From Phlebopus portentosus (lineage: Eukaryota; Basidiomycota; Agaricomycetes; Boletales; Boletinellaceae): DNA of 64,000 nt. Shown in pieces: positions 3,592 to 64,000 of this stretch. The translations under genes were made by a program, and so were the position numbers. Position 1 is the first letter of the stretch. Each line of letters begins with the position of its first letter. Under the pieces are notes generated by a model that was not told the origin of the DNA, ran no database searches, and was given only the letters and a program-made list of their open reading frames with translations. The stretch spans positions 1,550,001 to 1,614,000 of the forward strand of contig JAYXKI010000004.1 in the NCBI GenBank assembly GCA_037892935.1. The letters are read 5' to 3'.

Positions 3592-5220
3592 TGAAGAGTA
3601 AGTCTGAAGCTTGGGAACGTACGGAGTCGTTACGACCAGTTCCGCGGTGTTTTAACTAGTTTTGCTCGGTTTTGACTGGTTTTGCTTGAACGAGTAGACT
3701 TAGCAAGAATGCCATAGTCCAGATGGCACGTGCACCGTTCTTTGATTGGCCATCAAGACGGGAGAATCACGGCATTGAGTTTGCATGCATCAATCACAAG
3801 TCTCCGGATCTTGGATCCGCATTCCAGACAAAGAGATTTGACCCTGCAACCTCGTCCTCAGTCCCTCTCCTTTGTTAAATATCGCAGACTTACTTTGTCA
3901 GGCTAGCCAGAGCCCTTCTAAGTCATTTCCCCGAGTTCCGCTTCATTCCGCTCAAAGAGACCCAGTTCCGAAGGTTTCGCACATATTCTGACCTTTCTAT
4001 ATGTGTCCCCTTTAATCCATTATGCTCTCGTTCCAGACATGCTTAGTATTGTTTCTTTTGATCTATGTGTCCCTTAAACTATTCATATGTGCTCCTCTCC
4101 TTTGTAGATAGCGATATGCGTTCCCTTTTCTTTATGACGTAGGTTCTCTGACTGCTGGGAGGCTCAGTCTTGGATGTTTAGTATAAATATAGCATGACTC
4201 TCATAGTAGAAGGGGAGCTTAGTGGGAGCTGAGTTGGAGCTTAGCTAGACAGTTCTCACATCATCTCAAAGTCCCTCATCCTCTAGTCTACTTGTTCGTA
4301 GTGGACTCTCTTGTCTCTATAGTCTAATATACAACATTTTGTGTTCTGTACAGTCGATCAGTGATCTCTCTTCACAGTAGAGCCGTTCGTACGTTTGTAT
4401 AGTTCACAGTGGTCGCATAAAGACTTCTCTTACTTCTCTCACCTGAATCAAAACTTCCATATGCATTCCAAACCGTTTCGCCCAGTTTCGCTCATAACCC
4501 AGTTACTCTGCGTGCCACTTGCATTTGGTCTCACAACACCTTCTCCCCTCTATTGTCATCGGGAAAGGACACCATATCACCCTTTTCCTCCTAACATTCC
4601 TCTCCCTACTTCCTCAAGTCATTGCCTGGTGTTATTCTACATCGTTTTGATCGGAAACAGTCGGTTCCATCGTCCCATGCAAATCCTTCGATTCTCTCAG
4701 TCCCCCTCCATCATCGTTTTGCACCTCCATCCCTCGCATCACATTTCGACACACTCAGCCATTGTCCTTCATCCATCATATCGCATTTCAAATTGTTACA
4801 TCGCATTTCAACACTTTAGACTTTGAGTGAGATCGACTGCAGTCGCTTGCCAGTGTGTTAGCACAGTCGATTAGTCACGTTCGAGTTGGTGGTTCAACTA
4901 GCATAGCTTAGTTAGTTTAGTTCTTGTGCCTTGGGTTAGTTGGCTTTAGTCCAGAGCTCACAGTTGAGCTGGAGAGTCGATTTAGCCTTTGCACCGCCAC
5001 CGTCAATCTCGGGAGAAGTCTACCCTCGGAATTCTTCCTCGAGCGCTTACCTCACATCCCTCAGTTCTCACCAAGCCCTTCCATTGTATATCTCTGTTTT
5101 CCTCTATTCCTTCGTGCCCTTAGCTCGGGTGTAATTCTCTGCTGACCGCTTGAAGGTATTCTAGGGCAGCCCCTCGAACTATACACTCCCTGTCTGGCAT
5201 CAGAACATCCACAGGAGTTT
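3592..5220 (+). repeat. Solo LTR of a third family (C), copy 1
   Basis: About 1.63 kb beginning TGAAGAGTAAG. The homologous copy at 43869-45498 ends GGAGTTTCA, giving TG...CA ends. A TATAAATA box at 4182-4189 sits mid-element, as expected for an LTR promoter, and the part after it is pyrimidine-rich leader. No gag or pol is attached. Identity to copy 2 is about 90%, with mainly C/T and G/A differences. The right end has lost the final CA and about 35 bp of flank. The open frames at 4395-5145 are low-complexity Pro/Ser/His readings and not credible genes. Confidence 0.65.
4182..4189 (+). promoter_or_regulatory. TATA box of LTR C
   Basis: TATAAATA, about 590 bp into the LTR, is conserved in the second copy at about 44459. 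It supports plus orientation of the C-family LTR. Confidence 0.5.
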
Positions 5221-43868: not shown

Positions 43869-45498
43869 TGAAGAGTAAGTCTGAAGCTTGGGAACGTATG
43901 GAGTCGTTACGACCAGTTCTGCGGGTTTCCGACTGGTTTCGCTCAGTTTCGACTGGTTTCGCTCGAACAAGTGGACTTAGCAAGAACGCCATAGTTCAGA
44001 CGGCACATGCACCGTTCTTTGATTGGCCATCAAGGTGGGAGAATCACAGCATCGAGTTTGCACGCATCGATCACAAGTCTCCGGATCTTGGATCCGCATT
44101 CCAGACAAAGAGATTTGACCCTGCAACCTCATCCAAAGTCCCTCTCCTTTGTAAAACCTTGCAGACTTACTTTGTCAGGCTAGCCAAAGCCCTTCCGAGT
44201 CATTTCCCCGAGTTCTGCTTTGTTCTGCTCAAAGAGACCCAGTTCTGAAGGTTTCGCACGTATTCTGACCTTTCTATATGCGTCCCCTTTAATCCATTAT
44301 GCTCTCGTTCCAGACATGCTCAGTATTGTTTCTTTTGACTTATGTGTCCCTTAAACCATTCATATGCGCTCCTCTCCTTTGTAGATAGTGATATGTGTTC
44401 CATTTTCCTTATGATATATGTTCTCTGACCGATGGGAGGCTCAGTCTTGGACGTTTAGTATAAATATAGCATGACTCTCATAGTAGAGGGACAGCTTAGT
44501 GGGAGCTTAGTTGAAGCTTAGCTAGGCAGTTCTCACATCGTCTCAAAGTCCCTTGACCTCTAGTCTACTTGTTTGTAGTGGACTCTCTTGTCTCTATAGT
44601 CTAATATACAACATTTTGTGTTCTGTACAGTCGATCGGTGATCTCTCTTCGCAGTAGAGCCGTTTGTGCATTCGTATAGTTCGCTGTCATTGTATAAAGG
44701 CTTCTCTTACTTCTCTCACCCAAATCGAAACCTCCTTACGTGTTTCGAACCATTTCGCCCGGTTTTGCTCATAACCCAGTTACTCTGCATGCCGCTCACA
44801 TTTGGTCTTGCAACACCTTCTCCTCTCCATTGTCGTCAGGAAAGGACACCATATCGCCCCTTTCCTCCTGACATTCCTCTCCCGGCTTCCTCACTTCCAG
44901 CCCGACGCTATTCCACATCGTTTCAATTGGATACGGTCGGTTCCATCATCCTGCGCATATCCTTCAATTCTCTCAGTCCCCCTCCATCATTGTTTTGCAC
45001 CTCCATCCCTCACCTCATATTTTGACACACTTAGCAATTGTCCTTCATCCATCGTATCGCGTTTCAAATTATTACGCCATGTTCCGACACTTAAGACTAC
45101 GAGTGAGATCGACTGCAGTCGCTTACCAGTATGTTAGCACAGTCGATTAGTCATGTTCAGGTTGGTGGTTCAACTAGCATAGCTTAGTTAGTTTAGTTCT
45201 TGTGCCTTGGGTTAGTCAGCTTTAGTCCAGAGCTCGCAGCTGAGCTGGAGTGTCGATTTAGCCTTCGCACTGCCACTGTCAATCTCGGAAGAAGTTCACC
45301 CTCAGAATTCTTCCTCGAGCGCTTCCCTCACATCCCTCAGTACTCACCAAGCCCCTCCATTGTGTATCCCTATTTCCCTCCATTCCTTCGTGCCCTTAGC
45401 TTGGGTGTAATTCTCTGCTGACCACTTGAAGGTATTCTAGGGCAGCTCCTCGAACTATACACTCCCTGTCCGGCATCAGAACGTCCACAGGAGTTTCA
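43869..45498 (+). repeat. Solo LTR C, copy 2 (complete)
   Basis: 1,630 bp, TGAAGAGTAAG...GGAGTTTCA, inserted in the A6 leader. The flanks ACTGG / CCAGC do not form a perfect duplication; a 4-bp CTGG/CCAG target with two changes is possible. TATAAATA near 44460. Confidence 0.7.
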
Positions 45499-49706: not shown

Positions 49707-51421
49707 TGTTGACTATCAGACTCTCCTAGATAGGGACAAAGGTGGCGGCGGCGGCGTTCGACCACAGGGAGGCGATGTCAAAGGTGTCGAGAGGAAAAAG
49801 GGGAGGTCCTACCAGATCTACAGACTACCTACAGGCTTTCAGAAGCGACACTCAGCTCAGATGTACAAGGATCTGGCCGTTAGGGCAGATCCGCCGCGCC
49901 TTCGAATAACTCGCCGCGGCGATCCGGGCCTCAGCGACTGTATAGGGATCGCCGAGTCCGACTGAACCGGCGAAGGGGTCGCAGCGGCGGACTGGGTGCG
50001 GGGCCGGCGGAGGTTCGCACCAGTGCAATTCCGCCTGGTAGTCGGGGAGATGACGTCGGAACGACACAGAGAAGATGCGGGAGAGAGAGAGTCGACACCA
50101 CTTAAAAGGGGAGTAGTGTCGGCGGTGGAACGACGCGGAGGCGGCGGAGGCGGCGAGAAGTGGGAGACTGGACTCAGTCGAAAAGGGGCGCCGGCGCCGA
50201 CGGTAGCGGTGAACACAAGAAGAGTGACAGCTGCGTCGAGGCGTCGACGAAGTATAACAGATGCCTAGAAGAGTGACGGCTGCGTCGAGGCGTTGAGGAA
50301 GAATCACAAATGTTCAGGGGCCGAGCGGCGGCGGAGGCTAGAGAGAGAGGGACGGCGATGCAGATATGAGTGGGAAGTCCCCGGAGCGATTACTAGACGA
50401 GTGACAGCTGCGCAGAGGGGAGACGACCAGGGCGGCGAATGAGCTCGGCGGCTTCTATCCTGTGAGATCCGGGCCGACGCCGTCAGGACGGGATCGGCGG
50501 GGGCACGTGACCGGGAGTTCGCCCGATCCGGCTGTCTGGTTCTCTGTATATACTGGTTTCTTGAAGGAGGCTTCTTTACTTGTGGTTGGTCTCTGGTAAC
50601 TGCGTTCTAGAGTGTATATCTGCTTCTTTTTAGGATAGATACATGCTCTCTATATATACTATGAGTCCTTGATAAGAAATATCACTTAAAGCAGCGGGCG
50701 GCGAGGCGTGACAGGCGCGCCGCGACGGCGGGGGCCGCCGCCGAGATGTGCCGCCAAGCCACCAAGACCTAGGGGCGCCCCAATCGGAACGGCGGAGTGC
50801 TGGTACGTCGTGTCGAATGTCGGGGCCGTTCGGATCGGTCAGGGCGCGCTCTATATAGATCTGAAACGCCAAGGGGTCGAATAAAACTAAAAAGGGGAAT
50901 ATACGGACGGCCGCCGGGCGCGCTACCGCGCTCGGCGTACAATGTGGGATGATAAGAATATGAAACAATCAACGAAATGGACCTGAGATTGGCTATCGTT
51001 CACCCAGCCGGCGCGGCGGCGGGCATACACCTCCGCGATGGCGCGATATACATCCGCCGCAGCGTGTCCGGCCGCCGTGCGAGCACTTCCGAAGCCCGGA
51101 GTCACCGGATTCGGCGGAACCGTTCTTGAGAGAGGCTGGAGAAGGGGAACTAGGATTTGGTCGAAGGGAGGACAAGGTGATCATAAGATAGGAGTGGAGG
51201 CGTCGCCGCCGGTTCGTATGGTCGGCGGCGGCGGCGGCGTGGATGCTGTTCCTAGGCCGCCGAAGGTCCGGCGGCCGCTGAGCAGGCTGTATTATGGGTA
51301 ACGGCGGCGAAGGCTGGTTTGCTGACAATAGTACGCGGGGTGTCCTGGGTATGGCATAGGGGAGTACCGCCCTTACAGGCCTGTGCCGCTGGACCGGTAC
51401 AGGTTAGTGCGGCGCACTACA
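49707..51421 (-). repeat. Element B 3' LTR
   Basis: 1,715 bp. Plus-strand ends TGTTGACTATC (TGTAGAC in the other copies) and CACTACA. A TATATATAGAG box on the minus strand lies near 50645-50655. Confidence 0.93.
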
Positions 51422-51546: not shown

Positions 51547-53135
51547 TTAGTCTTCGGTTGTGAGATCGATCATCGGCGGATCGTGGATTGGTGCGGCGGT
51601 GTGCGGTGGAGGGTTGGCTCTGTCCGCCGCATCTTGTTGAGGTACGTTGTTGAGGTATGGGTGATGTTCAATGGATTCCCGAAGCTCGGCGAGGTGCTCT
51701 TCGATGTCCTGGGCGGCTGCGATTGCTGAGAGCGAATACTGTTGTGCTTGGAGTATAATGGCGATGACGTTGGCGGCGCAGTCGCGTATATCATCGTCGC
51801 CGCGCTCGTCGAAGAGGCGTAAGACTTGGATTATGGCATTGTGGGATAGGTCTGAGGCGGCGTCGGAGAAATGACGGCGTTTTCGAGTGCAATAGGCCCT
51901 TCTCTGAGGATGGCGAGGGGGGCATTGGGTAGTACGCCATCGCCGATAGGCGCGCCGAGAATTATGGGGATCGTAGTGAGGGCGCCGCCGATGCGGAGCG
52001 TTTCTCGGATGCGGCAAACGAGTGTCGCTTTGTTGGCAGGCGTCAGATGGTGTCTGGCGAAGAGTTCGGGGATGATCTGAAGCATCGCGGGGACGTGTCT
52101 GGCGGGGAACGGCATCGCCGCAGGAAACGCGTCGGCGAGGAGGTCGCAAAATGATCCCCAGTTTCCTCCGGAGAGGCGTGGGTCTTGACAGAGGAGTTGC
52201 TGGGCGTCCGGCGAGGCCCAAATGTACAGCAGGAAGATTAGAGTCGCCGTGTCGGGGCAGGGGTGATGAAAACTGCGAAGGGCGGCGATGAGAATATTTG
52301 GTAGAGCGGTGTAATCAGGGTGCCATGGGTAGAGGAGCATGGGGTGCCCGGGAAGTGTGATTAATTGGGCGAAGTTGAAATCTAAAAGGTGTTGGGCATG
52401 GCGGGGGAAGTGGACTGGGTGCGGGACTTGGAGTAGTGGTGTCGCCGGTGCGAATGGAAACGCTTCGGCGAGGCTGGGAACCAGCTGGGGCATGTTGTAA
52501 GGAGCGCCGATGGTATTCGTAATCTGTAGGGTAGATGTTTTGGGGGCGGTGAGTAGTTCGCCGACCGCTTTATATATTTTCGGCGAGTGTTTTCCGGGTT
52601 GGCCGGAGGGTATGACGGCTTTTGGCGAGGTGAAGTTGCCAGTATTATAGTGTAGAGGCCAATATAGGCGAAAGCCGAAGTAGTGTTCTAATGGAAGGGG
52701 GCCTAGGCGAAGGTGTTTCGTGTAGGCGGATCGTCGGCGGGACGAGTAAGTGGGATGGGAGGCTAGCGGCGAGGCTGGTTCGCCGGTAGTTCGGGTATGG
52801 TGGCCTGTAGCGGCGTGGGGCGAAGCGAACTTCGAATGGGAGGGGGCCTGGGCGAAGGAGTTTCGTACAGGCCGGTCGTCGGCGGGACGAGTGAGTGGGA
52901 TGGGAGGCTCGCGGCGAGGCTGGTTCGCCGGTAGTTCGGGTATGGTGGCCTGTAGCGGCGTGGGGCGAAGCGATCTTCGAATAGAAGGGGGCCTGGGCGA
53001 AGGAATTTCGTATAGGCGGGTCGTCGGCGGGACGGGCTTCGATTTAGAAGGGAGTTCGGAAGTAAAGTTTAAATGGTTAATCATGGAGGGTGTCGTCATA
53101 TCATGATCTTGATCTGGTACCAGATATGGATACAA
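51547..53135 (-). CDS. Element B ORF3, unknown sense-strand protein, one frameshift
   Basis: Starts at ATG 53135 (MYPYLVPDQDHD). About 434 codons are open, then near 51870 the frame breaks, and a protein-like frame continues (SDAASDLSHNAIIQVLRLF... to MIDLTTED) until the stop at 51547. Restoring a single-base change would give about 529 aa. N-terminal third proline-rich; the middle and C-terminal parts look helical (NILIAALRSFHHPCP, LLYIWASPDAQQLL, DIEEHLAELRESIEHH). No transmembrane segment or signal, so not an env protein. A 145-bp tandem duplication (about 52690-53035) is read in two frames. It lies between integrase and LTR, divergent from the antisense gene. I do not recognise the family. 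Confidence 0.6.
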
Positions 53136-53633
53136 TGGCCTTGTAGTCAGGGGTAGTGGTACATCGGAAATACAATTCGGCGGGATTTTGGCGGTCCGGG
53201 AACCAGTCGGGGACGCCAGGTAGTTAACTATGGCGGTGTAGGTCGTAGCATATAGGTTGAGGATTTGTTAATGGGTGTAGGTATGGCTAGGGTAGGGTGT
53301 GCGGCGATATTTGATGATCGGCGGGGGGGGATCGGCGTAGAATGTTGTATCGGCCGGCTTGGCAGGGGTCTGGAAGGTTGGGGCTGTGTTGTGGCGGGGT
53401 TCGGCGGATTGTTCCGGCGAGTTTTGGAGGGGGGAGAGTCGCCGAGGGGTTTGTGGAATTTGAGTGGAGATTGCGGCGGAGCAGTGGGGAGGATTTGGTA
53501 ATTGATTGGTAAAAGGGGGCGGGGAGGTCGCGTGTATGGAGGGCTGAAATCGGAGTTTGAATTGGGTGCGGCGAGGATATAGACGACGGGGACTCGTGTC
53601 TGAGTTCCCCGTTTCTCTTTTTCTCTTTCCACC
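53136..53633. promoter_or_regulatory. Divergent intergenic region of element B extra genes
   Basis: About 500 bp between ORF3 (-) and the antisense gene (+). The minus strand has proline-rich open frames (53228-53698) that might extend ORF3 upstream, but no continuous frame links them. Presumably holds both promoters; no clear TATA was identified. Confidence 0.4.
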
Positions 53634-55300
53634 ATGGCGCCGACGATTCTCAGCGTCAGCAGCAGCAGCGGCAGCGACAGCGACAGCAGCAGCAACAACA
53701 GCAGGGAGGGGTCGGAGGCTCCCTCCGACCAGATGGAGGTGGACGCCGGGGCGGCGACGGGGGCTCCTGCCGCGGGCGGGATGTCGCGGGCCCCCAGCGG
53801 GCAAGAGGTCCCGCCGGAGTCGCAGGGGGAGACGGAGGAGGAGGGTGGGGAGGGGGGGGGGGGGGGGGGGGGGGGGAGAACTGGACGCGGCCGTGTGGGC
53901 GGCCATTACGGTGGTGAGGGGGTGGATCGAGCGGGCCCGAAACGATGAGGGGCCCGCTGCCGATGAGCTCGATGGGCTCTTGGTAAATTTGCGTTCCCTT
54001 GATAATAACCGTGTGAGCTGACGATCTGGTTTACTTTTTCAGAAGGGGCTTGGGGAGCGCTTCCCCGCGCTATCCGACGACGCGAGGGCTGAAAAGCCCG
54101 AATATTATTGCGCGGGGAGGTGGTTGGTGAACCGGGCGACGGTGGTGCGGATGGCCGCCGGGGAGGCTAAGGACGCCGCCGAGGCGTTGGACAAGGCCGC
54201 CCAGTCGGAGGTGAATCGCCTCCGACGCGTCGCGGAGAGGCTGGCCGAGCGCCGGGAGGAGGAGGCTCGTGAGGAGGCGAAGCGGAGCGCGGCGAAGGTG
54301 GCCGAGGAGGCGAAAGCCTCCTTCCTCAAGACGCTCGCCACCCTGCGAGTTGGGGGCCCGGAGGTCGTCGAGGCCTTCTGTAGGTCCTCAGGGCGCGATG
54401 AGGCGGGGAACCTGGTAAGTCGTTGTCTTGAATCTTGTTTTTTACTGTCTCTGATAATATCTTCTTAGGTCGCGGCGCCTAAAACGAGCACCAAAGCGAA
54501 GGTGCAGGCGCGTCCCGCGGCCAGGCCGGCGACGGGAAAGACGATTACTCTTCCTGGGTCGTCGATCCCTGGTCTTGAGGTGGCGGGTTCGTCCAGCGAG
54601 ACGCTCAAGGGGGAGAGTGGTCGAGTGACGCGAGGGGGACGCTCGGGGACGGTCACGGGAAAGACCATTACTCTTGAGGTTGAGTCTGATGAGGGGTCAA
54701 CGCGAGCGAAAAGGTCGAGTGGAAAGGAGGTATATGTCGATGTGTGTTTTATGTCCTGGATCTTATTCTTTACTGACATGTTTCGTTTCTAGGTGCCTCC
54801 CCTTCCGAAGCGCGTACGTGAGCCGGTGGTCGAGCCGCCGGCGAAACGAGCAAGAGCGCCGGGAGCGGCGGCCTCGGGTGGGGGCAGGGCGAAAGAGGAG
54901 GCGACAGGAAGAAGGGACGGGGCGGTGAGTGCTGTCTTGAATTTTGTTCGTGACACTCTCTGACTATAATATTCAGAGGGAGGAGGGGGGTTGGGAGTTC
55001 GAGAGGGTCGGGCGGCTCCCCAGGGGTCAGAGCCGCCGCCTCCTCGAGTTCGTGTCGCCGGGGTGCGAGCGGTGCATCGGGCATGGGGAGATGTGCACGA
55101 GGCGCCCGCCGGCGCTCCTGTGCCAGGCGTGCCGGGTATCGCACCACCGGTGCAATATCTTGGAGTCGGACGTGACCTTCCTGGCGCAGCAGGAGGTCCT
55201 CGCTCTCCGCCGGCAGCTGGAGGGGATGGAGTCGACGTTGGCGGGAGAGAGTGCGGGTGGGGGGGTGGAGGAAAAGGCCCAGGGTGTACGCCGTGGATAG
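53634..55300 (+). CDS. Antisense spliced gene in element B: Zn2Cys6-cluster protein
   Basis: Five exons: 53634-53982, 54043-54414, 54469-54729, 54793-54924 and 54977-55300. The four introns are 52-63 bp, all GT...AG, and every junction keeps the frame. ATG in CACCATGG. Order in the ~478-aa product: Ser/acidic N-terminus (SDSDSSSNNS), Gly run, a helix (ELDAAVWAAITVVRGW), an Ala/Arg/Glu coiled coil (VNRLRRVAERLAERREEE), linkers with basic nuclear-signal-like words (PLPKRVREP, PAKRARAP), and a C-terminal CX2CX6CX8CX2CX6C cluster (55064-55153) followed by a coiled coil (LAQQEVLALRRQLEGMES). The spacing is that of fungal Zn2Cys6 DNA-binding domains. A G25 run (53852-53876) leaves exon 1 one base out of frame. 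Probably a nuclear DNA-binding protein; its role in the element is unknown. Confidence 0.75.
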
Positions 55301-55740: not shown

Positions 55741-58700
55741 TCATAAGTTGGATTCGGCGTCTAGGTCATCCGCCGCGGTCTCTTGTGCTAGGTTGTCGAG
55801 TTCCGGCGTGGATTTCTGAGTGAGGTCTTCGACTGAGTCGATGATTCGAGTGCGTGCGTGGTAGGGGATGACTCTGAATGCTGCGTAACGAAGTGCTGAA
55901 ATGGCGCCGTTTGCTTCGGCGAGAATGTAGGATCCTCCTTTGGTTCGCCGCACGACAATCATGGGCCCTAGGTACTTCGGCTTTGTCTTCCTGTTCAGCT
56001 CGTTTTCGATCTGGGAGTTCCGGACCAGCACAAGTGAGCCGGGGGCGAAATTGTACTCTTTAATTGTTGCGGCGTGGGTTTTCTCGAAGTCCTGTATGGA
56101 TTTGAAACGCCCCCGGATGACGGATTCCTTGACTCGTTGGAGGTCCTCGGGACGTTTCTGGAGTGCCCTTGCTCTCGCCGCGATGAGTTGTGCGTCGGAC
56201 ATCTTGGAGGTGACCGCCGGCGAGATGTACGTCTGTTCGGCGAGGTCAAAGGGGAGTACTGGTTCGACGCCGTGGGCCATAAAGTATGGGCTATAGCCTG
56301 TGCGGCGTTGGATCGTGATTCGTTCGGCCCAAATGGCGTGGTATATATGCTGGGACCACTTGTCTGGGCTTGCGTCGGCGAGCTTCATTAGGGTTTCTCT
56401 AAGGTCCCGGTGTCGCCGCTCAATGATTCCATTGGCTCTTGAGTTGTACGGCGAGATTCGAATGTGCTGGACATTGTATTTGGCGAGAAGGCGGGGTAGG
56501 TCCTTGGAGAATGAGGCACCGTTGTCGGTTACGATCTCCTCGACTCGTCCCCATCTTGACAAAATATCTTCGAAAACGAAGCGTGCTATCGAGGCGGCGT
56601 TATCTTTGCGCAGCATTCAGAATTCGGGGTATCCGGTGAGCGAGTCTCGGGCCTGAACGATATACTTGAATCCGCCGGAGGGCGGCATTAACATCACGTC
56701 TATATGCACCCTGGTGAATAGCGGCGCGGGCGTCGGGCTTTGCGGCGTGGTATATATTTTCGTAAACTGCCTCGTTTGGCATTGGTGGCAGGTTCTGATA
56801 TACCATTTGATGTCCTGATGCATTCCTGGCCACCAGAATCGGTCTTGGATCGTTGTTCTGACAGAGAAGAAGCCTTTGTGGCCGAGTTCGTCGTGGGCAG
56901 TTCTGATAATGACAATTCGGCGTTCCGGCGGAATAACGAGTGCGGCGTGACCTTTGTCGTTCTTTCTGTAGAGTTCGCCGTGCTGTAGGAAGAAACGAGT
57001 GGCTCGGCGTACGAACTGTTTGAATTGGGCGTCTGAAAGATCGGCGGGGCGGGATGGGGCGGCGAGAAATTTCTTGATACAATCGAGGTCTTTGAATCCT
57101 TTTTGGGAGGCTTTGTGATCGGGGAGTTGTACGGGTTCGCTGTTTGGGGTATAGGCCGTGTCGGAAAGGTCTTGGTTTAGGAAGGAGTATTGATGGTCGA
57201 TCCATTCTTCGAAGCCTTCGTCTCGCGGCGGATCGGTTTGTGCGGCGCCGCGGCGTGATAGGCCGTCTGGGCCGAGGTGTTTGGGCGCCGGCGTATGAAT
57301 GATCGTGAAATTGAACAGTAAGATGCCGGCGATCCATCTATTGATAGTGGCGTTGGGTTGGAGGTCTGGGTTGTTAATCATGCCTTTAATATAGCTGGCG
57401 TCGACTTCGACGAAAAAGTGATCGATGCCGACGAGGTATATGCGCGCCTCATATAGAGCTCTGAAGAGGCCGAAGAGTTCTAGCTTCGCCTGGGAGTAGT
57501 TTCGTTCTCTGTTGTTCCAGGTTCCGGACATGAAACGGGATGGGACCCTTTCGCCGTTTTCGCCGAGCTGTAACAAGATGGCGCCGTAGCCATGAACGGA
57601 GGAGTCTACACAGAAATGAACAGGTTGTCCTGACTCGTAGTCAATAGAACGGATGGCGCCGGAGGATGCTACGGCGTGTTTTAGTAGATCCATAGATCGG
57701 CGGGCGTCTTCGTCGAATAGGAAGGGCTGGTCTTTGCAGAGTAGTTTGTTGAGACCGGCGGATAGTCTGGCGTAGTTCTTAACGAAGTGTCTAAGGACGC
57801 CGGCCGTACCTAAGAATGCCCGAACATCGTGGACATCCCGCGGCGGCGGCCAATCCATTATCGCCTTGACCCTGGATGCGTCTGGGACTCGGCCGGCGTA
57901 ATTACAGGTGTGTCCTACAATGACTGCTTCTGGTGCGGCGATGATGAGTTTCTTACCCGAGACAGTGGCGCCGACTACTTTGAGGCGTTGGAGGACGCGG
58001 TTGACGTCGTTGAGATGTTCCCAGATGAAGCGGCGGATGTTCGGGTTCCCCGGAATGGTTTCGTAGTTTCCGGCGGCGAGCTCGTATCGGGATTTAGGCC
58101 CTTTTACAGGAATATCGTCGATGTATGGGATACAGACGTGGGGTATCTCATCTTTGAGGACGAACGTGACGTCGGCGTGCATAATTTGTTGCGAGTTGGT
58201 GTATCCCATAGGAATCGAGGTGAGGCGAAACGCGCCGAGAGGTGTTTGGAATGTTGTGAGGTCGTGAGATCGTACGTCGAGCTTCCTCTGGTCGAAGGCG
58301 ACGAATAGATCGAGTGTGGTGTAGCAGGCATGGCCGCCGAAGGTCTCGGCGATGTGTTCTGTGGGGTAAGGGACGGAGGGGTCGCGTATGGAGACTTTGT
58401 TGAGTGGCTGGAGATCGTGTACAAGCCGAAGGGATTTTCCATCCTTTTTAACGACGCAGAACCATCGGGAGCGGTAAGAGGAATTGGACGGCTCGTAGAC
58501 GCCGGAGTTAATTTTGTCTTTGATTATGCGAACCACTTCGTTGAAGATCCCCGGCGGAATAGGGATGTTTTTCATTACCCACGGCGTGTGGTCGACAGTA
58601 GGAATTAGAACGGGCGCGAAGTATTGATAGTCGAGGGAGCCCTTTTCTGTTTCGTCCCAAGCTAGGCCGTCTTCATGTTGTAGAAGGGTCCAGTAGGCGA

Positions 58701-59226
58701 GGTTCTTTTCTTCCTCACTGAGGAAGCCAGTTGGGTCGATGTCTAGGGCGTCGAAGCGTTCTTGTGTAAAGCGGCGTCCTGGAATGAACTCCGGCGGATC
58801 GATCGGGAGCTTCGGTAGGTCTGTGAGCGGCTGCGGGTGTGATTTGCGTATGATGCGGTAGTCCTCTGGAAGGGTCGCCGATATAGGTTTGGTTCGTTGG
58901 GCGACCTTTTTGTACTTGTAGGCGTGCCCGGCCGGTTGAGCGGCCGTGGTATTAAGAGTGCTGTTGGAGCGGGGTATTCTGTTGCGTACGGGGAGTGATT
59001 CATCGTCGAAAATAGAGTTAATGAAGAAGGCTGGATGTTTTTGGGCTTTGTTCTGGGCTGTGAAACCCTTTTCGGCGGATCGATCAGAAAATGAGGTGGA
59101 GATATCTATGGTGCGGGGATTGAAGGCGATATTTACAGTCGCCGGGCCGTGATGGAGCACATATGCGTCGGGTATGGTTGGGGGTATACGCCGCATATGT
59201 TCCGGCGGACGCCGCTGGGACGTCAT
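55741..59226 (-). pseudogene. Element B RT-RNase H-integrase, one in-frame TGA
   Basis: ATG 59226 overlaps the protease stop (ATGA). 1,161 codons. The N-terminal ~200 residues are a linker, then RT (about 255-440; FCVVKKDGKSLRLVHDLQPL; YIDD 368-371), RNase H (about 545-665; VDSSVHGYGAIL, QAKLELFGL), integrase zinc finger (HDELGH...CHQCQ, about 780-815) and catalytic core (HIDVM; VTDNGASF; YNSRANGIIERRHRD), ending in a C-terminal domain (GSLVLVRNSQIENELN...YLGPMIVVRRT). The only defect is TGA at 56617-56619 (codon 870, likely CGA), which splits the core between its first and second catalytic Asp. No chromodomain seen. RT type is that common in Agaricomycete Gypsy elements. Confidence 0.93.
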
Positions 59227-60141
59227 TGTCTAGGGGGGCGCTGTTTTTCTGTCCCGGCGCCGCGCTGAATCGTCGGGATCGACATGGTTTCGTTCGTATC
59301 GGGATGAGTAAGGTATAGCGTCTGTTTGCCGTCGGCCTCGTCTATGACCTGCGCCCTAGTGTGTACGAAAAACGGCCGGCCTAATAGTAACTGAAAGGGG
59401 GCCTTTTCGACGACCTGGACTTGGACAACGATAGAGAAGGCGCCTATGGTGAGTCTGACGCGAGGGATGAGTCCCGCCGAGCGTGAGGTTTGTCTGTCGG
59501 CGGTTTCTACTGTGATTGCTTGGCTCATTATCGTCGGGGAGCCGAGGTCCTTCCATACCTCTTTCGGCACGGCGATAAATGTCGACCCCGAGTCGAGCAA
59601 AGCTTTTACTTCGAATTTATCATCGAGCCAGACCTCGATTTCGCGGAGGGGAATGTTCGGCGGGGCGACGGAAGGATCTTCGTCGCCGAAGTTAACCGGC
59701 GAGGTGGGCCTCGGGATTGAGGCGTACATTGCCATCTCGTGATCAGGATTTTCCCTAATTAGTTCTCGGCGCCCCGTGACGAATTCTTTACACTTCTTTC
59801 TGATTTCGGGAGAGGCGGCGAGCAGGCTTCGGATCGGCAGGGTGACTTCCGAGTCCAGAATCTTGTCGAAAACGTTCGATACCGCGGCGTCATCGTATGC
59901 TGGTACGGTGGTTCGGTATTGTGGCTTCGGATCCGCCGCGTCGTCCCTGTGCGGCGCCGAGGGCGTCGGCGGCGGGGCCGGGCGTTGTCCGGGTGGTTTC
60001 CCCTTCTTGCCGTTATCTCCCCATTTCGGGTTGGGGTCTCGAGGCGGCTTTCTGGTGGGGATTTCGATTCCGTCGAAAACTTCTCTGGGGCCTGGCCGTC
60101 TTCCGGCGGCGGCGAAGGCATTCTGCGGTTGTTCGGGGGGG
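59223..60141 (-). CDS. Element B protease part of gag-pro
   Basis: From the C7 tract leftward the frame reads RPGPREVFDGIEIPTRKPP..., a linker, then an aspartic protease: ALLDSGSTFIAVPKE (catalytic DSG, about 59580-59600) and LLLGRPFFV flap/C-terminal motif (about 59370-59395). It ends at TGA 59223-59225 within ATGA. The frame differs from gag by one base at the C7 run 60135-60141, so it is either fused by frameshifting or gag-pro is one ORF with a homopolymer error. Confidence 0.82.
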
Positions 60142-61683
60142 ATTCTTCTTGTTCAAAAAGGAGCGCGACTCCGTCGCAGGCATCGTCGTCTGGGGGTCTT
60201 CTGGGGTGATAGCCTCGAAGTAGTTCGATTCCTGGATTCGCGGCGGCAGGCCGTTCGGCGGATTTGTATTGTAGGCTAAGGGAGGCGGTGCCCGGTTGAG
60301 GCCCTGGTACATAGATTCCTGTGATGGAGGGTGTGACTGATACATGGATTGTCGAGTCGGCGGTTGTCCCTGATATGTAGGATCCTGCCTCGGCGGAGCG
60401 ATCCTTGGCGGCGTGTCGGATACGGGCTGAATGGGGAGCTGGACGCCAACTGGTGCGTAGTTTGGATTCTCTGTGAAGAGCTTATTAATCCTGTCCAGTA
60501 CTGACATCCCCGGTTCTCCCTGAGGAAGTCGGCCATTGGAGGGGTACAAGTACCCTTTGGCGTCGGCGAGCATGATTCCCCTCTGGATCAGGGAGATCTT
60601 GGTGGGACAGTCGCGGGTAGGGTGCGTTACACTGGCGCATACGGCGCATTTTCCGTTAAATCTGGCTTGTCGGGGCTGCGGCGGGGCTCCTGCGGTTGGC
60701 GGCGGAGCGCGGCGGTTTGACTTCTCGGTGGCTTCACGGAGGGCGTGCATTTCCTGGATTAGGAGGGACACCCACGGTTCTTCTTGCTTGACCTGGGGTT
60801 GGTTGATGACTCCGTAGGCCGGAGCACCGGGTTGCGGCGGCGGCGTGTACGTCGTAACTTGTGTATAGGTGGGCATGGCCGCTGTCGCCGCATACATCAG
60901 TGGTTGGTCGGCGGTTGTGAGGCGGCCGCCGGTTAGGATGCGTTCTAGTTCTCTTACAACTGTGTCGATGTCCCAGGGCACGCCGGTAGGGTGGTCGTGC
61001 TTGACAAACCGCAAATTAAGATCCAGCTCTCTGTTTAGCGTCGGGTGGAGGCCTTCTCTGAACATACGCTTCTGTTCGAACTCTGATAGCATGCCGGCGT
61101 CGATAAGATACGAGGAGACGGTGATAAAGTTCCTATGGTATTCGCCGAGGGCGGCGGTGTTCAGCATAATTTGGTTGCGGCTTATGTTAATAAGGTTGTG
61201 GAGGTCGCCGAGTGTGTACTGGGTCGTAGCGTTTGGGTAGTACTTTAGGATAGCGTCTTTGAATGCCATAAAGTCGTTTCCTCTCGTTTCGGGCCTTTTG
61301 CACCATAGCTGATCGTCTTTAGCGTCGGCGTAGCATCTTGCCCAAGCGATCATTTGTGCATCTGTTAGGCCGGCGCTTCGTCCAAATAGCCGGACTCTGT
61401 TAAAGAAGATGGGGATTTCCGCGGGGTCGCCGGAGGCGTTGAACTTCGGCGCGCGGCGGTCTCCCGGGTAGGGCATTGTAGCTCCTGGCACTGGTGGGTT
61501 GGGACCACTTAATGGATGGGTATCTGGGTCACTGAGGTCTGGGAGAGGGGGAAAGGCGCCCGCGGGGGGTGGTGCTGGTGCGGCATAGGCTGGTGCGGCG
61601 GGGGACGGCTGTTGGGGGGGCGGCGGGGTCGATCCTGAGGCTGCGGGGGGGGCGGCGGGAATGCCGGTATGGGTGCTGGTCAT
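60013..61683 (-). CDS. Element B gag
   Basis: 556 codons from ATG 61683 (MTSTHTGIPAAPP), the first in-frame ATG after the primer site; the frame is also open upstream to the LTR (about 265 codons, protein-like, no ATG). Proline-rich N-terminus, capsid-like region (IPIFFNRVRLFGRSAGLTDAQ; FKDAILKYYPNATTQYTLGD; FITVSSYLIDAGMLSEFEQK, about 61420-61050), and a CX2CX4HX4C zinc knuckle (CAVCASVTHPTRDC, about 60610-60655). The last ~43 codons after the C7 tract are probably out of the biological frame. Confidence 0.88.
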   Translation of the reverse strand: MTSTHTGIPAAPPAASGSTPPPPQQPSPAAPAYAAPAPPPAGAFPPLPDLSDPDTHPLSGPNPPVPGATMPYPGDRRAPKFNASGDPAEIPIFFNRVRLFGRSAGLTDAQMIAWARCYADAKDDQLWCKRPETRGNDFMAFKDAILKYYPNATTQYTLGDLHNLINISRNQIMLNTAALGEYHRNFITVSSYLIDAGMLSEFEQKRMFREGLHPTLNRELDLNLRFVKHDHPTGVPWDIDTVVRELERILTGGRLTTADQPLMYAATAAMPTYTQVTTYTPPPQPGAPAYGVINQPQVKQEEPWVSLLIQEMHALREATEKSNRRAPPPTAGAPPQPRQARFNGKCAVCASVTHPTRDCPTKISLIQRGIMLADAKGYLYPSNGRLPQGEPGMSVLDRINKLFTENPNYAPVGVQLPIQPVSDTPPRIAPPRQDPTYQGQPPTRQSMYQSHPPSQESMYQGLNRAPPPLAYNTNPPNGLPPRIQESNYFEAITPEDPQTTMPATESRSFLNKKNPPRTTAECLRRRRKTARPQRSFRRNRNPHQKAASRPQPEMGR

Positions 61684-62461
61684 TGTTGGTATCGAGGCCG
61701 TCTTAGGAGGTGTACTGGGGGTGGGTGGTTGGGCGTTGTCAATTGGGGAGAGCCGCGGCCTCTGAGCTGGGGTCGGCAGCGTAAGAGGGGGGGGTGGGGA
61801 GAGCCTCGCCGATCGCTCTTCTTCGACGGGGGATAGTGGAGAGTCGGGGGTGATTGCGTGGCCGTGTACGAGGGAGTCGGGGACGTAAAGGTCGTCGTCC
61901 TCCTGTTCTTCTGCGGCGGAGTATAACTGTAGGCCGGTGCGGCGGTGGAGATCTGGGGGGTTGTCTATGTCGGAGAAGAGGTCGGTTTCGATGGGGCCGG
62001 TGGCTGGAGGTTCCTGGAGGGATATTGACAGGTCCTCGATGCCGCCGGGGACACGAACGTGAGTACTGGGGTGAATTTCGGATTCGCGGAGGTCTTTAGG
62101 AACGTGGATGAAACGAGGGGGAATTATAGGCGATATAGGGTGTGCGGCGGCGGTGCTTGCGCTTTCGCCGGGCGGTGGGTTACGTGTAAAAGGAGTGATA
62201 GATGCTCTTCTGGGATGCCGGGTGGGTGGGTCGTCTGCGGCGATGGAGGCGCGTCGACGGTTCGGCGCGGACGGAGATCTGGGTGCGGTGGGACGGGGTT
62301 CTTCTGTTCGGCCTCTTGTAAAGAGTGTGGAATAATGGTATGGTTGGCCGGCGGTTGTGGCTGAGGCTGTTTGACTGTTTTCCGCCCTTCTTTGCAGCCT
62401 TAGTGAGTATCGCGTGCCCTTGGAAGGGCCTGAGATCGGTTGGAACGACACCTTTTTACCT
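61684..62461 (-). other. Element B leader with open frame upstream of gag ATG
   Basis: The gag frame stays open without an ATG (words such as GTRYSLRLQRRAENS and EDLSISLQEPPATGPIETD). It may be an N-terminal gag extension using a non-ATG or spliced start, or untranslated leader. Confidence 0.45.
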
Positions 62462-62479
62462 CCCTCGCCGTGGGCTCCA
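62462..62479 (-). promoter_or_regulatory. Element B primer-binding site (tRNA type)
   Basis: On the element strand TGGAGCCCACGGCGAGGG, three bases after the 5' LTR, starting with TGG as for a tRNA 3' CCA end. So B, unlike family A, is probably tRNA-primed. Which tRNA is not determined. Confidence 0.65.
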
Positions 62480-62482
62480 AAA

Positions 62483-64000
62483 TGTAGACTATCAGACTCT
62501 CCTAGACAGGGACAAAGGTGGCGGCAGTGGCGTTCGACCACAGGGAGGCGATGTCAAAGGTGTCGAGAGGAAAAAGGGGAGGTCCTACCAGATCTACAGA
62601 CTACCTACAGGCTTTCAGAAGCGACACTCAGCTCAGATGTACAAGGATCTGGCCGTTAGGGCAGATCCGCCGCGCCTTCGAATAACTCGCCGCGGCGATC
62701 CGGGCCTCGGCGACTGTATAGGAATCGCCGAGTCCGACTGAACCGGCGAAGGGGTCGCAGCGGCGGACTGGGTGCGGGGCCGGCGGAGGTTCGCACCAGT
62801 GCAATTCCGCCTGGTAGTTGGGGAGATGACATCGGAACGACACAGAGAGGGCGCGGGAGAGAGAGAGTCGACACCACTTAAAAAGGGGAGTAGTGTCGGC
62901 GGTGGAACGACGCGGAGGCGGCGGAGGCGGCGAGAAGTGGGAGACTGGACTCAGTCGAAAAGGGGCGCCGGCGCCGACGGAAGGGGTGAACACAAGAAGA
63001 GTGACAGCTGCGTCGAGGCGTCGACGAAGTATAACAGATGCCTAGAAGAGTGACGGCTGCGTCGAGGCGTTGAGGAAGAATCACAAATGTTCAGGGCCCG
63101 AGCGGCGGCGGAGGCTAGAGAGAGAGGGACGGCGATGCAGATATGAGTGGGACGTCCCCGGAGCGATTACTAAACGAGTGACAGCTGCGCAGAGGGGAGA
63201 CGACCAGGGCGGCGAATGAGCTCGGCGGCTTCTATCCTGTGAGATCCGGGGCCGCGCCGTCAGGACGGGATCGGCGAGGGCACGTGACCGGGAGTTCGCC
63301 CGATCCGGCTGTCTGGTTCTCTGTATATACTGGTTTCTTGAAGGAGGCTTCTTTACTTGTGGTTGGTCTCTGGTAGCTGCGTTCTAGAGTGTATATCTGC
63401 TGCTTTTTAGGATAGATACATGCTCTCTATATATACTATGAGTCCTTGATAAGAAATATCACTTAAAGCGGCGGGCGGCGAGGCGTGACAGGCGCGCCGC
63501 GACGGCGGGGGCCGCCGCCGAGATGCGCCGCCAAGCCACCAAGACCTAGGGGCGCCCCAATCGGAACGGCGGAGTGCTGGTACGTCGTGTCGAATGTCGG
63601 GGCCGTTCGGATCGGTCAGGGCGCGCTCTATATAGATCTGAAACGCCAAGGGGTCGAATAAAACTAAAAAGGGGAATATACGGACGGCCGCCGGGCGCGC
63701 TACCGCGCTCGGCGTACAATGTGGGATGATAAGAATATGAAACAATCAACGAAATGGACCTGAGATTGGCTATCGTTCACCCAGCCGGCGCGGCGGCGGG
63801 CATACACCTCCGCGATGGCGCGATATACATCCGCCGCAGCGTGTCCGGCCGCCGTGCGAGCACTTCCGAAGCCCGGAGTCACCGGATTCGGCGGAACCGT
63901 TCTTGAGAGAGGCTGGAGAAGGGGAACTAGGATTTGGTCGAAGGGAGGACAAGATGATCATAAGATAGGAGTGGAGGCATCGCCGCCGGTTCGTATGGTC
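62483..64000 (-). repeat. Element B 5' LTR, cut by window end
   Basis: 1,518 bp visible; colinear with 49707-51220 of the 3' LTR with few differences. Plus-strand start TGTAGACTATC. Confidence 0.93.

Follow-up and report, generated by a model that had tools for sequence, protein, structure and literature searches.

A clade of Ty3/Gypsy LTR retrotransposons in Phlebopus portentosus carries an intron-bearing gene on the strand opposite gag-pol; its counterpart is present in three families (B, B2 and B3), and its protein is under purifying selection in B2. The matching position of the counterpart in the two families related to B suggests a functioning accessory gene of the element and not an accident. 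We give even chances to the view that this conserved gene encodes a nuclear protein that probably binds DNA and most likely regulates its own element. The copy described here in detail lies in a stretch of 64,000 nucleotides (the window; G000:C4:1550001-1614000), and the genome searched comprises 38.4 Mb in 23 contigs.

Element B is a Ty3/Gypsy LTR retrotransposon on the minus strand of the window, and so are all its features given in this paragraph. Its two LTRs are 98.3% identical over 1722 bp. The 3' LTR (49707-51421) was delimited by its TG...CA edges and by its identity to the 5' LTR (62483-64000), which extends beyond the window to about position 64198; no matching target duplication (5 bp) was seen at the edges of the element. 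An open frame of 842 aa (60013-62541) was assigned to gag by position only, and a protease-like open frame (59223-59735) by its position and a DSGS word, without a family search. In pol, RVT_1, RT_RNaseH and Integrase_H2C2 exceeded their Pfam cut-offs in the order typical of Gypsy (RT, RNase H and the zinc-binding part of integrase, 56617-59226), and the end of the integrase core with the C-terminal tail (55741-56616) gave a match to rve with an E value of 0.0001, under its cut-off. The element is classed as Ty3/Gypsy by its two LTRs, gag and the pol order PR-RT-RH-IN, with gag and PR placed by position only. Between the antisense gene and the 3' LTR there is one more sense open frame (51834-53267), of 478 codons from stop to stop and 434 aa counted from the first start, which is oriented head to head with the antisense gene and has no Pfam match. 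Sense frames of 478-595 aa were found again in other B copies, and 21 changes in eight copies over ~530 bp were 12 nonsynonymous (N) and 9 synonymous (S), with 14.0 N under the null, so that constraint was not measurable in this sample. This frame is specific to B, there being no room for it in B2 and B3, where the ATG of the antisense gene lies ~130 bp from the putative LTR. A tandem repeat of 145 bp in 2.4 copies is located within it (52686-53034). Elsewhere in the window, two stretches (3592-5220 and 43869-45498) share ~90% identity with the putative B2 LTR, have no adjoining B2 internal sequence among the matches, and are probably solo LTRs.

The antisense gene occupies the plus strand between pol and the 3' LTR. 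Exon 1 (53634-53982, with the ATG at 53634) is followed by intron 1 (53983-54042, 60 nt, with CTGAC 21 nt before its end), exon 2 (54043-54414, 372 nt), which is charged and coiled-coil-like by eye, intron 2 (54415-54468, 54 nt, CTGAT), exon 3 (54469-54729, 261 nt), intron 3 (54730-54792, 63 nt, CTGAC), exon 4 (54793-54924, 132 nt), with the basic words PKRVRE and AKRARA that may act as nuclear localization signals, intron 4 (54925-54976, 52 nt, CTGAC), and exon 5 (54977-55300, 324 nt including the stop). The branch-point word stands 13-21 nt upstream of the acceptor in all four introns, and their GC content is 0.31-0.40, versus 0.63-0.73 in the exons. The original prediction had described five exons and four introns of 52-63 nt that preserve one frame, opposite gag-pol and between integrase and the 3' LTR. 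This structure was confirmed, with all four pairs of GT-AG borders in 26 of 27 copies, and so was its location, although the gene does not fill the space, since the 478-codon sense frame intervenes. The introns do preserve one frame, but in the window copy a run of 25 G (53852-53876) breaks the frame within exon 1: 72 codons are open from the ATG up to the run, and the end of exon 1 after it joins exons 2-5 in a different open frame of 397 aa that stops at 55300. The frame break may be due to slippage or to an assembly error. That the introns survive retrotransposition, as had also been proposed, follows from the sequence, because the sense RNA of the element carries them as CT...AC. Long open frames mirrored on the sense strand and the GC-rich exons could suggest that the whole gene is a by-product of GC-rich coding on that strand, but the AT-rich introns and their branch-point words fit the antisense strand only; together with the evidence from B2 given below, this leaves such an overlap artefact with a practically negligible probability.

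Exon 5 contains a cluster of six cysteines, CX2CX6CX8CX2CX6C (55064-55153, plus strand), followed by a predicted helix. The cluster is the sole match to a relaxed Cys6 pattern in the six frames of the window, and its six cysteines are retained in 26 of the 27 B copies. Zn2Cys6 domains (PF00172) obey the spacing rule CX2CX6CX5-12CX2CX6-8C, which is satisfied by B (X8/X6), B2 (X7/X6) and B3 (X7/X7). Pfam searches with the antisense proteins gave nothing above any cut-off; PF00172 stayed under its 21-bit cut-off (8.9-16.2 bits in B, the highest value for its cluster alone, 12.1 in B2 and 8.7 in B3), being the best Pfam match for each of the three isolated clusters and not listed for the full-length B2 and B3 proteins. 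The motif foreseen in the original prediction is present, and its designation as a fungal binuclear zinc cluster rests on the spacing and the context. In B2 and B3, the cluster is followed by a basic linker (AKRRK in B2) and a helical-looking end, and this order of cluster, linker and coiled coil is that of Gal4-type factors. The antisense proteins resemble these in the allowed spacing of the six cysteines, the basic linker and the helical end, and differ from them in that the cluster is near the C-terminus, scores below the Pfam cut-off and is borne by a retroelement. An AlphaFold model of B exon 5 alone, from one sequence, had a mean pLDDT of 53 and a helix at residues 50-90, with the blocks at 71-90 (pLDDT 73-77) as the only ones above 70; the fold of the cluster was not apparent in this single-sequence model. 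None of the seven matches listed in a PDB sequence search was believable, NCBIfam gave none at E values up to 1, and plasmids gave no match. Among viral contigs, there was no pattern match for pol, and none of five pattern matches for exon 5 was confirmed. The usual targets of Zn2Cys6 proteins are CGG half-sites. CGG/CCG pairs in the B LTR (49707-51421) were 1.6 to 3.3 times as frequent as in dinucleotide shuffles; the LTRs of B2 and B3 had no CGG excess, apart from direct pairs that were slightly more numerous in B2 (8 versus 5.4), and the counts do not support a common target in the LTR.

To describe the variation of the gene in family B, we used a 1.2-kb probe that recovered 27 copies over nearly its whole length, the window copy included, plus fragments; these counts are lower bounds. 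All four GT-AG pairs were kept in every near-full copy except L035 (~90% identical), which has lost two donors. The ATG was kept in 25 of the 27, exons 2-5 were free of stops at the lengths of the window copy in 13, and seven combined a start codon, an exon 1 whose length is a multiple of three and exons 2-5 without stops. The longest G run varied from 5 to 29 nt. Outside L035, exon indels in the remaining 26 copies were confined to G runs or came in multiples of three in a CAG-type repeat, with two exceptions, single-base events in L020 (perhaps due to the alignment) and L029. A probe for the end of pol found 31 full or nearly full B copies, and pairing of the match positions placed the antisense gene, or its 3' part at the least, next to all 31. 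In two of these, C1:2289673 and C5:2463003/2478734, the pol end contains a large insertion. Three loci with a B-type RT (C15:138070, C18:26261 and C14:370415) gave no gene match; their RT matches end at residue 251-262 of 300, and they look like elements broken off inside RT and thus uninformative on the gene. A single capture, the alternative that the original prediction had itself raised, is excluded, since all 31 pol-end copies and the two sister families carry the gene. Matches to the C-terminal exon of the gene numbered 133 in the genome, fragments included (33 in B, 66 in B2 and 34 in B3).

CpG transitions predominate in the variation among B copies: in copies L009-L034, 43-61% of CpG sites in five sequence classes were polymorphic by transition, versus 1-9% of other sites, which suggests strong CpG methylation and a methylation-driven decay of B elements. 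Raw N/S counts were replaced by CpG-aware ones because few CpG sites explain the low variation of the introns, and the null used for B keeps the types of change (1000 shuffles). By this measure, the end of pol is under strong constraint, its shared changes being 16 N/38 S (null 34.6/19.4, with 0/1000 shuffles as low). In the antisense gene after the G run, the shared changes were 46 N/39 S (null 54.6/30.4, 36/1000), 0.66 of the null ratio; all singletons were 85/58 (null 91.1/51.9, 140/1000), non-CpG singletons 23/19 (null 28.1/13.9, 70/1000), and the non-CpG shared changes (6 N/3 S) were too few for use. Exon 1 before the G run had 9 N/2 S shared changes (null 6.7/4.0), and exon 5 alone did not differ from neutral. 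In the cluster, 13 of 30 residues vary among recent copies and the cysteines do not. NG86 dN/dS was 0.34-0.59 in four chosen pairs, without CpG correction. Intact splice sites have little statistical force in B, because GT and AG sites mutate slowly there. Purifying selection on the antisense protein of B is thus weak, and B by itself would leave the question of selection undecided.

The methylation suggested by this pattern bears on one alternative role of the protein, that of a counter-silencing factor, which would bind element copies and prevent their methylation or packing into heterochromatin by the host, in the manner of the VANC proteins of Arabidopsis VANDAL elements. Both the suggested methylation in B and the selection on the B2 protein fit such a role, but the CpG decay also shows that the copies are silenced in the end, and we consider it unlikely, if worth keeping in mind.

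Using RT searches, we detected two families related to B, namely B2 (~61% identical to B, with a pol frame of 1180 codons) and B3 (~59%, 1212 codons), and we read ~10 kb past pol in seven copies of these. In all seven loci, the sole relaxed Cys6 match was antisense to pol and ended ~450-570 bp from its stop. L049, an eighth copy read on the opposite side of pol, had different frames and no Cys6 match. The cluster reads CDQCQKRGRDCVGLPQRTCAPCLKQAKGC in B2 and CERCARxGRVCEGFPGQACDYCRTKARRRC in B3. Both genes consist of three exons. The introns measure 52 and 47 nt in B2, whose product has 730 aa, and 64 and 54 nt in B3, whose product has 600 aa; a CTRAY word is found in three of these four introns. 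With the ATG so close to the putative LTR in both families, an antisense promoter would sit in or next to the 3' LTR. Another 20 B2 loci, picked by RT position alone, all contained the gene or, at a minimum, its 3' part, always antisense to RT. The B2 and B3 proteins share homology at their C-terminal ends (at most 37% identity over ~120 aa, E values down to 2.4e-10; 2.8e-10 by hhalign). The B cluster has a weak likeness to those of B3 (hhalign E value of 0.0016) and B2 (0.023), and a search of the genome with B exon 5 did not find the B2 and B3 clusters; a common origin of the B gene with those of B2 and B3 rests mainly on position and architecture. Two B2 loci have an unusual arrangement. 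L043 (G000:C12:241300-251250) presents two successive B2 3' ends, with one antisense gene shortened, and is a truncated or tandem copy. In L047 (G000:C18:862000-871900), B sense-frame sequence directly follows the B2 LTR, and the B2 element appears to be nested within a B element.

To assess selection in B2, we aligned the 18 full-length genes among 25 copies, excluding the broken ones (L051, L054, L058, L062, L064, L066 and L069). In 17 of the 18, every exon has a length divisible by three, even though exon 3 spans 1509-1626 nt; both introns are GT-AG in 16, and 13 are open throughout. Where the null predicted 54.3/24.7, the shared changes were 28 N/51 S, with none of 500 shuffles as low, and removal of the CpG sites led to the same result (16/27, null 30.5/12.5, 0/500). 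Exon 3 holds the signal (21/44, null 44.4/20.6), also in the region that follows the cluster (3/9, null 8.1/3.9, 1/500). No departure from neutrality could be distinguished in exon 2 (6/4, null 6.6/3.4) or in the cluster and its flanks (3/3, null 4.2/1.8). NG86 dN/dS was 0.09-0.29 in 7 of the 17 pairs with the reference. In B3, with three copies, both introns are kept in all, two have a frameshift or stop, and dN/dS was 0.31-0.57 in three pairs. We conclude that purifying selection on the antisense protein is clear in B2, and the three pairs are suggestive of it in B3. The expectation that codon changes would prove nonneutral, therefore, holds for B2 and only weakly for B, and is not borne out by exon 5 of B alone.

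The same alignment decides between the coding strands. Among the other frames of B2, which behave as anticipated, the mirrored sense frame has the same substitution ratio but 21 stops, whereas the antisense frame has one, at its last codon; since the ratio comes with an open frame on the antisense strand only, a sense-coding artefact is refuted for B2. It also bears on the possibility that the antisense RNA itself is the functional product, through double-stranded RNA or transcription interference with pol, the open frame being incidental. The gene converges on pol with ~440 bp between the two stops, and regulation by antisense RNA has been discussed for such elements in the part of the literature available to us (PMC7264820). 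The synonymous preference in the antisense frame of B2, its length changes in threes and the conservation of the cysteines between B2 and B3 speak against an RNA product, which we find improbable.

A stand-alone frame with a similar cluster (CSRCARAGIACAGKEGRACFTCRAHRQGC) is located at G000:C3:2959485-2960129, on the plus strand, as a single full-length occurrence in the genome; the 2.5 kb around it (L070, C3:2957900-2960400) contain no Gypsy pol. Its cluster matches those of the B2 and B3 antisense genes with E values of 0.002-0.003 and scores 17.2 bits with PF00172, against the cut-off of 21. The C3 gene may be a donor, a descendant or domesticated copy, or an independent zinc-cluster gene. 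It would suit a scenario in which a host zinc-cluster gene was captured and is now a decaying passenger, as would the weak constraint in B, but the C3 gene may equally derive from the element, the counterpart has been kept in three families ~40% apart in RT, and B2 is clearly constrained, so that a passenger appears highly improbable. A weak match to the C3 cluster gene was observed at G000:C19:108156-108413 (E value of 0.0026, 264-aa frame). Another candidate relative, C8:515576, was rejected (E value of 0.04; the frame is LRR-like by eye).

These observations are best accommodated by a self-acting regulator, to which we assign about half of the total probability. The accessory gene of this Ty3/Gypsy clade would give an antisense transcript that the host splices, and its translation would yield a protein with a variable N-terminal part, acidic and basic stretches and, near the C-terminus, the Zn2Cys6-like cluster, the basic linker and the helical, coiled-coil-like end. 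The product would enter the nucleus, probably bind DNA and act in trans on its own family by binding to the LTR or to internal sites, and such binding would set, with positive or negative sign, the level of sense transcription and hence the copy number. Self-regulation of this kind would be comparable to what has been proposed for the antisense genes of the plant Retand elements and is known for HBZ. The latter, an antisense gene of the retroelement HTLV-1, is spliced and encodes a nuclear regulator with a coiled-coil (bZIP) part; it starts in the 3' LTR of a retrovirus and has no Cys6. The likeness of our gene to HBZ is by description, both being intron-bearing and antisense, with Cys6 in B and bZIP in HBZ.

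Behind self-regulation we rank the counter-silencing role discussed above, and behind both a part in integration. The protein could tether integrase or the preintegration complex to chosen chromatin, a task of the chromodomain in chromoviruses. Pfam listed no chromodomain for either of the two pol frames of B, in keeping with elements that may lack one, and nested insertions are found around B, but a regulator would have the same appearance in sequence, and we judge a targeting factor quite unlikely.

Antisense genes have been described at this position in elements of plants and in the fungal element Boty. According to the parts available of the respective papers, 97% of the clusters of Retand elements have antisense TRP28 ORFs with predicted DNA binding (PMC11963269), and HBZ is mentioned there as well. 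They resemble B in several respects: Retand are nonchromovirus Gypsy elements with a long region between pol and the 3' LTR, a predicted DNA-binding domain, and an antisense gene in nearly all recent elements for which a regulatory role was proposed (PMC11963269). They differ in the host (plants) and in the domain, TRP28 versus the Cys6 cluster with helical end of B, B2 and B3 (PMC11963269), and TRP28 (PF04195) was not listed in Pfam scans of our antisense proteins at E values up to 10. In the text of that paper as far as accessible, "intron" has no mention and "splic" two (PMC11963269). The gene23 of the maize element Grande and other aORF-3R (RIRE2 and PvRetro13) likewise lie antisense in the region from pol to the 3' LTR, and most copies carry them. 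For gene23, a promoter of its own and a nuclear location of the protein are known; in contrast to the B gene, these genes belong to another host kingdom and no zinc cluster is reported for them in the portion available (PMC7264820). By orientation, location between pol and the 3' LTR and presence in most copies, the B gene fits an aORF-3R, and B2 and B3 share the location. A fungal LTR element with an additional antisense gene, brtn, is Boty of Botrytis cinerea, likened here by description only from an excerpt (PMC8365987). Homing-endonuclease genes in nuclear group I introns can also be antisense, with a 47-nt spliceosomal intron that is removed by the host; the element type and the protein are different from those of B, and expression was shown there, as far as the available portion goes (PMC9548176). 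In the accessible text of a survey of LTR retrotransposons in fungi (PMC3248453) and of a paper on Laccaria transposable elements (PMC3411680), neither antisense nor zinc was mentioned. Bdelloid elements capture extra ORFs, and "antisense" has a single mention, on small RNA, in what could be consulted of that paper (PMC5408684). Among the titles and abstract openings listed in a literature search, mostly of sources outside subscription journals, none described a Zn2Cys6-like gene that is antisense and spliced in an LTR element of a fungus. The arrangement itself is not new, since the antisense position was known from plants and Boty (PMC7264820, available in part), and what appears new is a spliced, Zn2Cys6-like variant conserved across fungal families.

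Although antisense accessory genes of Gypsy elements were noticed years ago, no function is known for them, as stated in the part of the source available (PMC7264820). With 133 matches to the C-terminal exon in one 38-Mb genome, three diverged families and a DNA-binding signature, it becomes a testable question whether an LTR element has its own transcription factor, and what its target is. For genome annotation there is a warning, in that such intron-bearing, host-like cluster genes may be listed as host transcription factors. Taking all of this together, it is possible, if somewhat short of an even chance, that an entire clade of Gypsy elements in fungi has a Gal4-type zinc-cluster regulator (or antisilencing factor) of its own, encoded in an antisense gene that can be read only after splicing by the host, where the sense RNA would serve as the genome and the antisense RNA would provide the regulator, and C3-like genes would be domesticated descendants or donors.
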